In this document: positions 5,686 to 61,384 of the stretch, in pieces | Numbering within the stretch: position 1 is the stretch's first letter | Layout of the letters: every line of letters begins with the position of its first letter | Source: Rhizobium sp. TH2 | GTDB lineage: Bacteria; Pseudomonadota; Alphaproteobacteria; Rhizobiales; Rhizobiaceae | DNA length: 64,000 bases | Reading direction: 5' to 3' | NCBI RefSeq assembly: GCF_024707525.1 | Contig: NZ_CP062231.1 | Span: forward strand, 2,232,001-2,296,000 | Notes under the pieces: model-generated | The model's database searches: none | Told to the model about the DNA's origin: nothing | Seen by the model: the letters and a program-made list of their open reading frames with translations, nothing else | Translations under genes and position numbers: made by a program

Positions 5686-6020
5686 GAGCGCTTCATTGTT
5701 AAATGAAAGCAGTTCTGCCGAGCAGGTTTTCGTCAGGACCAAGGCGGCGGGCGAGCGTCGTACCCTAAGGTACGGCCGAGACCGACGCCACAGGGACTGG
5801 CGGAAAGATGCCCGGCCCACCGGGCGCGCTTCGCGACGCCCGGCGATTCTAATGTCTTGCAGATTTGCTTTTGCAAATCTGCGGGAGGGTTGGCCGAAAC
5901 GGGCCGGCTCTTCGATCGGCTGGCTTGGCCGTAGTGCTTGGCTACGACGTGCGCCAGCCGATCGAACATCCGACTCCGCCTCAGCCAACAGAACTGCTTT
6001 CATTTAACAATGAAGCGCTC
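5686..6020. repeat. Palindromic intergenic element, family 1, copy 1
   Basis: This 335 bp element is bounded by a perfect 32 bp inverted repeat (5686-5717 and 5989-6020). Inside are further perfect palindromes: a 14 bp stem at 5911-5924/5953-5966, a 10 bp stem with a TTTT loop at 5859-5882, and a CCGGGCG/CGCCCGG hairpin at 5820-5843. Closely related copies lie at 25096-25420 and 46824-47098. It contains no transposase, and its open frames are not conserved between copies. It starts two bases past the glmS stop and fills most of the 405-base gap before the DUF502 gene. It resembles the palindromic mosaic repeats known in rhizobia, but I cannot assign it to a named family. Confidence 0.9.
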
Positions 6021-25014: not shown

Positions 25015-25095
25015 AACACAACCCCGCGCCGCAGGCAGGATAGTGCAACCTCTGGAGATAAATGGCAACCGCTGCCAGCCGCGGGATGCTAAAGT

Positions 25096-25420
25096 GTGTC
25101 GCGGCTATTTGGAGCCATTCTGCCGGAGCAGGTTTTCGTCAGGACCAAGGCGGCGGGCGAGCGTCGTACCCTTAGGTACGGCCGAGACCCGACGCCGCAG
25201 GGCATGGCGGAAAGATGCCCGGCCCACCGGGCGCGCTTCGCGACGCCCGGCGATTCTGATGTCTTGCAGATTTGCTTCAGGAAATCTGCGGGAGGTTGGC
25301 TGAAACGGGCCGCCTGATCGACCGGCCGGCTTGGCCGTAGATCTGGCTACGACGCGCGCCGGCCGATCGACCATCCGACTCCGCTTGAGCCAACAGAATG
25401 GCTCCAAATAGCTGCGACAC
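25096..25420. repeat. Palindromic intergenic element, family 1, copy 2
   Basis: This 325 bp copy has 27 bp terminal arms (25096-25122 and 25394-25420), complementary except for one G-T type mismatch. Its core closely matches copy 1 at 5686-6020, including the CGTACC/GGTACG, CCGGGCG/CGCCCGG and GCAGATTT/AAATCTGC hairpins. The outer arms, however, are a different sequence from those of copies 1 and 3. It lies between the 5' ends of comEC and gltA. A short open frame across it is an accident of the repeat. Confidence 0.9.
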
Positions 25421-25646
25421 GCTTTGGTCCAGCCTGGCGCCATTTTCGGGCAATAGAGCTTCAATCGATTAAATTCTTAAGCCACAAGATTCCCTTTGAT
25501 TTCCGGGTTTTGCAGTGCCAAAACCTGATATGGCGATGCAGCAATAATCATTGGCAGTGCTTGGCATAACCGCCTACATACTATAGCAAAAAATCGCAAA
25601 AACGGACGATGTCCCCCACCGTCCTCGACCCAGACCGGAGGCATTC
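25421..25646 (+). promoter_or_regulatory. gltA upstream region
   Basis: This 226-base AT-richer stretch separates the repeat from gltA and should hold the gltA promoter. The best candidate boxes are TTGGCA (25561-25566) and TATAGC (25582-25587), but their spacing of 15 is short, so this is weak. A CGGAGG-like ribosome site precedes the ATG at 25647. No operator is evident. Confidence 0.35.
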
Positions 25647-39276: not shown

Positions 39277-39411
39277 TTCAAACCTCTTTATGTCCGCTAA
39301 GCGCGGGACCGGATCAGCCGGGCCGCTCTTTCCGCCGGAACTGGGGACGGAGTGTATCCAGATGCGTAACAGTCATGTGACAGGCTCATGACCTGCGGTC
39401 TGGATAGTCTC

Positions 39412-39553
39412 GGACCGATCGACTTTCGGCTCAGGCCGCGGCGAAAATGGTGGTTTTCGAGAACCGGAGCGGAGCGTAATTAACGTACGTGAGCACCGGA
39501 AGCGCGGAAAATCGCCATTTGCAGACCGGCATCAGCCGAAAGTCGATCGGTCC
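39412..39553. repeat. Palindromic intergenic element, family 2, copy A (between rpsB and tsf)
   Basis: This 142 bp element has perfect 20 bp terminal arms (39412-39431 and 39534-39553) and an interior that also folds back (AAAATGGTGGTTTT against AAAATCGCCATTT). A second copy lies inverted at 61246-61378 with changed but still complementary arms. It sits in the rpsB-tsf gap, so on the transcript it would form a long hairpin between two cotranscribed translation genes. No coding capacity is seen. Confidence 0.9.
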
Positions 39554-39641
39554 AAGGGCAAAGGCCGCGCCAGAAATTACTGCAGCCCTGCCCCTGATAT
39601 CGATGGGAGCGGAGGCGGTAAAGCCCCTGCTCCTCTATGCC

Positions 39642-40400: not shown

Positions 40401-40500
40401 GCCTTGTTATCCTTTTTCCGGTTGAACCTCCGTGAAGCTTGAAGCAGGTTTTGATACCTGCCACCGGGTGGAGCGAGCCGGATTTCTCCCGGAAAGCCCC
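40401..40500 (-). promoter_or_regulatory. rpsB 5' leader with small hairpins
   Basis: The minus strand upstream of rpsB contains a perfect 6 bp hairpin GCAGGT/ACCTGC (40444-40461) and a CCGG/CCGG hairpin (40478-40492). Such structured leaders could serve autoregulation by S2, as known for rpsB in other bacteria. I do not recognise a named motif and found no convincing promoter boxes. Confidence 0.35.
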
Positions 40501-40624
40501 AGACTTCACGTGTGGAATGAGCGCGGCCTTAAACCGAAGACCGCTCGAAAGCAACCCCGGCGGCGAAAAATATGCGGCCGGGATCGTAAAATGGCGCGTT
40601 ACTTGCTCACACCGATTTCGGGGA

Positions 40625-46823: not shown

Positions 46824-47098
46824 TAGAGCCTTTCATTGTTAAATGGAAGCAGTTCTGCCGGAGCAGATTTTCGTCAGGGCAGAGGCGATTGGCGAAGGAC
46901 ATACCCAGATGTACGGCCGAGACGATCGCCTCTGAGCCTGGCGGAAAGATGCCCGGCCCTTCGGGTTGGCTGAAACGGGCCGGCTGATCGACCGGCCGGC
47001 TTGGCCGTATGCTTTGGCTACGACGCGCGCCGGCCGGTCGACCATCCGACTCCGCTTGAGCCAACAGAACTGCTTCCATTTAACAATGAAAGGCTCTA
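46824..47098. repeat. Palindromic intergenic element, family 1, copy 3 (shorter form)
   Basis: This 275 bp copy has perfect 34 bp terminal arms (46824-46857 and 47065-47098). An internal perfect 12 bp stem lies at 46989-47000/47029-47040. Compared with copies 1 and 2 it lacks the central module holding the CCGGGCG and GCAGATTT hairpins, about 70 bases. Its arms match copy 1 except at sites where both arms change together. It fills most of the 381-base gap between the nitroreductase gene and the secreted-protein gene at 47163. Confidence 0.9.
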
Positions 47099-58110: not shown

Positions 58111-58270
58111 ACCCCCCTCTGTCGCTTCGCGACATCTCCCCCTCAAGGGGGGAGATTGGAGACTCGTTGCAGCGCCTCTGCGACAGGCGAAGCGTGTCGG
58201 TGGAGTGGAGGTCGTCCAGCATCCGATCTCCCCCCTTGAGGGGGAGATGCCCGGCAGGGCAGAGGGGGGT
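58111..58270. repeat. Nested palindrome between the IscU-like gene and yidD
   Basis: This 160 bp element has outer 10 bp arms ACCCCCCTCT/AGAGGGGGGT (58111-58120 and 58261-58270) and perfect 23 bp inner arms (58134-58156 and 58226-58248). Between them sit two different small hairpins, GTCGC-TTC-GCGAC on the left (58121-58133) and GCCC-TGCC-GGGC-like on the right (58249-58260). The centre (58157-58225) is unpaired by eye. Similar CTCCCCCTCAAGGGGG blocks are common repeats in rhizobial genomes, as I recall. It fills the gap between two leftward genes. Confidence 0.9.
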
Positions 58271-61245: not shown

Positions 61246-61378
61246 AGGACCGATCGACATTCAGCCGGTCTGCAAATGGTGATTTTCTGCGCTTCCGGTG
61301 CTCGCGTACCTTAAGTACGCTCCGGTTCTCGAAAACCGCCTTTTTCGCCGCTGCCTGAGCTGAATCTCGGTCGGTCCT
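61246..61378. repeat. Palindromic intergenic element, family 2, copy B (inverted)
   Basis: This 133 bp copy is in opposite orientation to 39412-39553. Its terminal arms (61246-61265 and 61359-61378) are complementary at 18 of 20 positions. The interior matches copy A closely, with a cleaner GCGTAC/GTACGC hairpin. It exactly fills the gap between two convergent stops (61237 and 61385), where it could act as a two-way transcription terminator. Confidence 0.88.
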
Positions 61379-61384
61379 AGTCGG

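Follow-up and report, generated by a model that had tools for sequence, protein, structure and literature searches.

Background

The usual picture of MITEs is one of fixed ends around a decaying middle, and IS630/Tc1-mariner elements target TA. Among the described systems, RUP of Streptococcus pneumoniae is, as outlined in PMC2229807 and PMC3049150, an IS630-Spn1 MITE that inserts at TA, has IS630-like terminal repeats, carries no gene, folds tightly with paired ends and occurs in >100 copies. NEMIS/Correia and ERIC are TA-flanked folded repeats by the summary in PMC2229807, and according to passages in PMC2229807 and PMC10969869 RNase III cleaves NEMIS transcripts, and an ERIC at the 3' end of a gene can change the level of mRNA. 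The CIR repeats of Caulobacter and Brucella are alphaproteobacterial and, as PMC2229807 sketches them, have TA ends, two inner arms and a GANTC motif, and the Rhizobium-specific intergenic mosaic elements (RIMEs) and Sm repeats are repeated, intergenic and rhizobial, to go by their descriptions. In these respects each of them resembles the element studied here.

We report that a palindromic element present in three places in a window of 64,000 nucleotides (the whole stretch of DNA that was analysed) belongs to a family with dozens of copies in its genome. The features tested mark it as an IS630-type MITE, and it is unusual in two ways: its end repeats are exchangeable and nearly always match within a copy, and its core is old and covarying. 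We consider it probable that the family is a non-autonomous IS630/Tc1-mariner-type MITE family with helpers acting in trans, with matched replacement of its ends and with selection on the fold of its core.

Results

Three copies of the element in the window

The initial annotation described a three-copy element whose stems change together between copies. The three copies are real, with copies 1 and 3 exactly where they had been placed; copy 2 is present as well, at 25090-25425 and not at 25096-25420. From the outside inwards the anatomy is TA, a terminal stem of ~33 bp with GAGC at its outer end in most copies, and then stems A and B. The two inner stems are parted by a short loop, or in long forms by ~65 extra nt with two more hairpins. 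The features in the window are:

5686..6020, + strand: copy 1, long form, 335 nt, between a DUF502-like gene and glmS (as we presume these genes to be)
5686..5717, no strand: copy 1 left terminal arm, 32/32 complementary to the right arm
5712..5818, + strand: copy 1 stem A, left inner hairpin, apical GTACCC..GGTACGGCCGAG; a few terminal-stem bases included
5819..5888, + strand: copy 1 optional insert of ~65-70 nt between stems A and B, two extra hairpins
5889..5993, + strand: copy 1 stem B, right inner hairpin, GGCTTGGCCGTA..GGCTACGAC; a few terminal-stem bases included
5989..6020, no strand: copy 1 right terminal arm, partner of 5686-5717
25090..25425, + strand: copy 2, long form, other arm type, TAAAGTGTGTCGCGGC...
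25117..25225, + strand: copy 2 stem A
25294..25398, + strand: copy 2 stem B
46824..47098, + strand: copy 3, short form, 275 nt, TA at each end
46824..46857, no strand: copy 3 left terminal arm, 34/34 complementary to the right arm
46852..46959, + strand: copy 3 stem A
46965..47069, + strand: copy 3 stem B
47065..47098, no strand: copy 3 right terminal arm, partner of 46824-46857

Copy 1 lies 2 bp away from the glmS stop codon and has no TA at its ends at present. Only mechanical open reading frames of ≤135 aa run across it, which bears out the annotation that the element carries no transposase. The perfect arm pairing annotated for copies 1 and 3 was reproduced; the arms of copy 2 are imperfectly complementary (30/32, 94%). 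Exact, too, was the annotated example of two compensated substitutions in an inner stem, with CGATCGGCTGGC/GCCAGCCGATCG in copy 1 and CGACCGGCCGGC/GCCGGCCGGTCG in copy 3. The predicted folding energy of copy 1 is -207.6 kcal/mol vs a mean of -127.9 for shuffled sequence (z -14.8), and the corresponding z for copy 3 is -15.2. Copies 1 and 2 share a core that is 89% identical and arms of 50-54% identity, and between copies 1 and 3 the arms are 88% and the core 81% identical.

The optional insert between stems A and B is confined to long-form copies. Related elements (L184 and L190, both in G053, as well as L269 and L274) carry different extra hairpins at the same position, so this spot seems to take inserts repeatedly. 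The apex of stem A and the reverse complement of stem B are also alike (TCGTA-CC..TACGGCC-AG). This likeness is suggestive of a common origin of the two hairpins, i.e. of an element that is an old inverted duplication, and in only 28/59 copies does stem A match the reverse-complemented stem B better than all 100 shuffles.

The window holds other folded sequences. A second palindromic repeat occurs at 39409-39556 and 61264-61380 (arms of 61-63 nt, 87-92% complementary between the two places), and an inverted repeat, CATCTCCCCCTCAAGGGGGGAGATTGGA, of 28 nt with 96% complementarity and 61 nt apart, lies at 58133-58249. The only Rfam match in the window at gathering score is the rpsB sRNA (RF01815) at 40405-40514 on the minus strand.

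Copy number and distribution of the family

The annotated number of three holds for the window and falls well short of the genome, where we found 43 near-complete copies of 270-335 nt in 6.4 Mb; since the first search scored 40 of 87 candidates, the copy total may exceed this count. At a score of ≥60 there were 80 hits, 63 of them full-length and 17 partial, and the full-length hits comprise the 43 copies in this genome, 18 from relatives and two antisense duplicates. At least 11 further copies in this genome are broken, with a stem or an arm missing (L035, L037, L038, L039, L041, L055 and L162-L166). At L162 (G000:C1:296700-298300) a lone short palindrome, TAGAGCCTTTCATTGTTAAATGGAAGGCTCTA, consists of an arm without a core and is apparently a deletion product. 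Alignment A1 used below contains 59 of 61 copies, without L073, which duplicates L049 flanks included, and L042, which has lost an internal part; of 58 distinct sequences, 40 are in alignment A2 and 43 in A3, both thinned by hand and the latter lacking L252.

A sequence search at E 0.001 gave a match in 7/9 genomes of the genus, with many copies only in this one, and at E 1e-20 in 9/151 genomes of the family. With a model of stem A (E 1e-6) the matches extended to 35/151 genomes of the family, 23/249 in a sample of the order and 8/337 in a sample of the class, the own genome included each time. Judged by this model, relatives of one inner stem are spread over the order and thinly over the class. 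Plasmid matches amounted to 208 records, of which 161 are from Rhizobium and 45 from Sinorhizobium, and a search of a phage collection gave no match to the element. Eighteen distant loci (L264-L281) were inspected for terminal arms, which were found in 13 and in none of the other five. All 13 end in AGAGC, preceded by T in 10, and their inner bases vary widely, yet 22-26 of 26 positions are paired. The best matches of a neighbouring protein among named genomes are from Rhizobium setariae (83%) and R. alvei (80%), in a match list that may omit records of this genome itself; judged from these relatives, the host belongs to the Rhizobiaceae.

Insertion at TA and at stop codons

TA is kept at both ends in 31/43 copies in this genome. 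The base before it is a pyrimidine in 37/38 cases and the base after it a purine in 32/34, in agreement with a YTAR preference. At L094 the element breaks the stop codon of the gene by which this locus was found, and the junctions read GATTA/G..C/TAACC (slashes mark the ends of the element). In 6/9 aligned relatives this site reads GAYTAACC and is free of insert, so the element and one TA were added at L094, which gives a target-site duplication relative to an empty site, observed at this one site. The other three relatives have GACTAGCC (L090), no TA there (L113) and GATTAGGCTCTAACC (L093). The last of these, at about 4180-4190 of L093 and in the same stop codon as in L094, resembles the two outermost ends of the element and is apparently an excision or deletion footprint left after the middle was lost. 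A convincing copy is present in only L094 and L134 among 80 loci found via the neighbouring protein.

These sites also bear on the idea, named in the initial annotation as a refuting case, that the core was inserted independently into pre-existing palindromes of differing sequence. Arms that differ strongly on nearly equal cores and the isolated arm-like hairpin at L162 would fit it. We nevertheless regard it as highly improbable, since the empty sites inspected show only TA or no palindrome, and it is excluded at both of them: a plain TA stands in the relatives of L094, and 7/7 relatives with the same gene order (eight inspected) lack any insert where copy 1 lies.

The TA of a stop codon is used by 17/43 copies, at 20 gene ends, and there the first base of the element (G, in a few copies A) recreates TAG or TAA. 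As a null we took the window, where 20/278 non-coding or stop TA sites (7.2%) lie in stop codons (binomial P ~2.5e-9), or 10/54 (18.5%) if restricted to YTAR sites (P ~0.001); these values rest on a crude gene caller and a null from one window, and L049 and L073 are a duplicated pair. Such stop-preserving insertion, by TA followed by G or A, would explain a harmless build-up of copies at gene ends.

Pairing is kept through sequence change

The initial annotation proposed a covariation test on collected copies. We counted 93 pairs, those of the arms among them, over 59 aligned copies, of which 56 are distinct. Of all cells 95.6% are paired, a figure favoured by taking the pairing structure from copy 3, and double changes occur at 37/93 pairs. 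The covariation score is 0.238 vs 0.086 for shuffled alignments (reached in 0 of 500; kinship among the copies inflates this control) and ≤0.062 when the partners were slid. Specifically, double changes are present in 22/33 pairs of the arm helix, 7/31 of stem A, and 2/12, 6/13 and 0/4 pairs of the three parts of stem B. The pair 152/232, which is outside the structure used for the 93-pair count, also covaries. With the sister species included, compensated changes occur in 11/28 consensus pairs of stem A and 11/27 of stem B.

The annotated compensation in the arms was found in most cells and is not complete: the outer pair 26/250 is unpaired in 22/56 distinct sequences, mainly as G.A (17/59 rows). 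Three neighbouring pairs of stem A (58/110, 59/109 and 60/108) are unpaired in 21-22 of 56. Other irregularities are preserved, i.e. the mismatches G43.A126 and 178/205 in 59/59 copies and the bulge base A39 in 57/59, and the apical loops rank among the most conserved parts of the element. The fixed mismatches are not universal, since 149/235 is paired in 15/59 copies and the G43.A126 site has been rebuilt in the sister species.

One account of these data does without selection on structure and lets template switching within hairpins equalise all arms, covariation being a mutational by-product. Template switching perfects quasipalindromes in the cases treated in the relevant parts of PMC7202029 and PMC8604942, the 149/235 mismatch became paired as this account predicts, and changes in the outer arms, which arrive in blocks, are often double transversions (150 vs 111 double transitions). 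The same process would however erase mismatches in the stems, and those that persist in all or nearly all copies, together with apical loops that are so well conserved, speak against it; as an explanation of the whole element we find it somewhat unlikely. That the pairs of the inner stems covary next to loops and mismatches which are conserved speaks for selection on the core's fold, the reading we prefer for these stems. Overall, the causes of pairing kept through sequence change seem mixed, with one for the arms and another for the inner stems. The initial annotation had offered either a folded functional unit or template switching; the inner stems fit the first and the arms the second, since they change in blocks at both ends as expected of template switching or some other copying step.

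DNA or RNA as the folded form

A structure that works as RNA, in a 3' UTR that it stabilises or terminates or where it is cut by RNase III, with selection on the RNA keeping the stems, is unlikely in our estimation. Gene 3' ends do host many copies, with convergent neighbours as the commonest setting; stem A has two U.G wobbles that nearly every sequence shares on the + strand (51 and 47 of 56), and a CTTCGGG centre is present in 28/41 copies. There are precedents in NEMIS and ERIC, as far as PMC2229807 and PMC10969869 cover them, and transcription of REP and other S. meliloti repeats is described in the sections of PMC2873474 concerned. Against this, the orientation relative to genes is without clear bias (of 43 copies 6 are codirectional, 10 antisense, 15 convergent, 8 divergent and 4 unresolved). 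The ratio of G.T to A.C on the + strand is 48/15 in the arms, 153/46 in stem A and 7/31 in stem B; because this wobble asymmetry differs between the stems, no single strand is favoured throughout. A scan with Rfam 15 at gathering score placed no family on the three copies, and with a relaxed E value the best match on copy 1 had E 0.46, far below the gathering score of that family. The orientation and wobble results thus lean to a structure at the level of DNA.

The terminal arms are exchanged as matched pairs

The arms have the form of terminal inverted repeats, with a median self-complementarity of 96% and a lowest value of 73% (59 copies). Among 41 copies of this genome the identity between copies in the left arm follows that in the right arm closely (r 0.97), and the correlations between core and arm identity are 0.21 and 0.20. 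There are 69 copy pairs in which the cores are ≥90% identical and both arms ≤62%, e.g. L052/L048 with cores 98% and arms 62 and 58% identical. The excess of double-transversion over double-transition cells in the outer arms given above suits block replacement of the arms. When four broad arm types are placed on a tree of the cores, ≥10 changes are needed where 3 would suffice. The arm types nevertheless cluster on this tree (a mean of 17.2 changes after shuffling, and as few as observed in 0/200); 8/53 of its inner branches are well supported, and these force only ~3 arm changes. Taken together, the outer arms seem to act as exchangeable terminal repeats of which both ends are replaced together.

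Two statements of the initial annotation need revision here. It had contrasted the element with ordinary MITEs, a contrast that fails, as TA duplication, terminal inverted repeats and the lack of a gene are MITE anatomy. It had also held that the ends are not fixed in sequence; in fact TA-GAGC at the very ends is for the most part retained, and local IS630 ends have it as well.

The arms compared with the ends of IS630 transposons

The genome has one clear IS630, L159, with ends in CTAGAGCAC. These agree with the arms mainly in the outermost bases, the best match being 10/12 in one arm. Its transposase is split across two overlapping frames (1019-2007 of L159), an arrangement known from frameshifting IS elements. 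In 11 IS630 loci of Rhizobiaceae, i.e. L159 and 10 plasmid hits picked by hand from 60 listed, the best end pair starts with TAGAGC in 10 and with TAAAGC in one. Nine of 29 further DDE_3 loci (10 if the weak L215 is counted) have a TAGAGC/TAAAGC-like end pair, and the remaining ones no convincing end pair within the stretch scanned. The arms of the element start with TAGAGC or TAAAGC in most copies, and TAGATC, TAGACC and a few others occur.

For a comparison beyond these bases, 20 of the 40 IS loci, a selected set, were entered with 40 IS ends. Over 12 compared positions the arm TAGAGCGTTTCATT equals the end of L214 and the arm TAGAGCGTGCTGTT that of L202; TAAAGCGTGTCGCA, an arm akin to those of copy 2, agrees with L226 at 11/12, and the left arm of copy 2 itself reaches 9 in its comparison with IS ends. 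Altogether 11/33 distinct arm 14-mers match some IS end at ≥11/12 positions, against a mean of 2.86 and a maximum of 10 in 500 column-shuffled sets of IS ends, and the weakest two arms reach just 8/12. The mean best match is 9.94 vs 9.43 after shuffling, a value reached in 6 of 1000; the effect on the mean is modest, the arms are kin by descent and the IS set is selected. On these comparisons, we regard the likeness of several arm types to particular IS630 ends beyond the first six bases as indicative. A search of the 40 IS loci for the folded core, as in an autonomous version of the element, gave 0 hits (nhmmer, E 0.01).

Discussion

A model for the family

The model that we propose for this MITE family is as follows. 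The element sits at YTAR sites, often in a stop codon, and duplicated TA at the one site with an empty counterpart, and its two-hairpin core (stems A and B) is enclosed by the terminal stem made by the end repeats. Several very different end repeats are found on a near-identical core, and the two ends of one copy nearly always match. We infer that the end repeats are putative binding sites for IS630-family transposases supplied in trans, in which case the element would resemble a parasite of transposons, and acquiring a new end would amount to a change of helper. The second end might then take its sequence from the first when template switching or repair acts on the hairpin of the paired arms; the expected product of template switching is what we see, not the event itself. 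In the core hairpins selection would maintain the fold, with a DNA hairpin or cruciform a little more likely than RNA, given that stem pairs covary, that loops and certain mismatches persist and that no transcription strand is favoured.

Tentatively, these elements could be modular MITEs present class-wide, in which a folded DNA core has long been kept, changes of helper have been survived by end replacement, and, once a new IS630-type end is gained on one side, the element's own hairpin rewrites the second end. If this is true, it is through the fold itself that the two ends stay matched. The middle and the pairing are kept here and the ends replaced as matched pairs, the reverse of the usual MITE, and the proposed model would provide a concrete route by which a non-autonomous element could outlive its helper transposase. 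With dozens of copies per genome the family would also be a natural system in which to measure homogenisation of arms by template switching. The data carry a warning as well: even strong base-pair covariation does not suffice to prove that a repeat is a functional RNA.

Relation to known repeat families

GACTC, a GANTC methylation site, lies at 5972-5976 of the window, near an internal loop of stem B, and at the equivalent positions of other copies. GANTC is found near the right end in 40/41 copies here and in 3/18 aligned relatives; a role for CcrM and GANTC was considered and rejected on account of the latter figure.

One possibility is that the element has already been published as one of the alphaproteobacterial repeats called RIME, Sm or CIR. 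The annotation of S. meliloti includes RIMEs, Sm repeats and ABC motifs, according to the relevant portions of PMC2573895 and PMC2245857, the Sinorhizobium plasmid records (45) match the element, and CIRs carry GANTC together with TA ends in the outline given by PMC2229807, as do nearly all copies here with respect to GANTC. By the description in that source, however, CIRs are ~110 bp long, with two arms and no pairing between the 5' and 3' ends, compared to 270-335 nt and a terminal stem of 32-34 bp here, and the low GANTC count among the relatives departs from the conserved motif of CIRs. We think it rather improbable that the family is one of these repeats. The literature search gave no paper identifiable as this family, which may overlap with RIME or Sm repeats.

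In comparison with NEMIS/Correia and ERIC, which are shorter by the accounts seen, this family differs further in its arms: no description of arm exchange with a kept core was found for either in the portions of PMC2229807 and PMC10969869 at hand. Rhizobial IS630 elements (e.g. ISRm10-1 and ISRm2011-2) share the ends TA-GAGC or TA-AAGC, as seen in the 11 loci, but unlike our element they carry a DDE transposase, and none of the 40 IS loci has the folded core. RUP is shorter as well (107 bp in the outline available), and in contrast to it the present element has two covarying inner hairpins and several types of terminal repeat per core. Thus, what is known here is the anatomy of an IS630-type MITE, and what seems new is the matched replacement of ends over a kept, covarying core.
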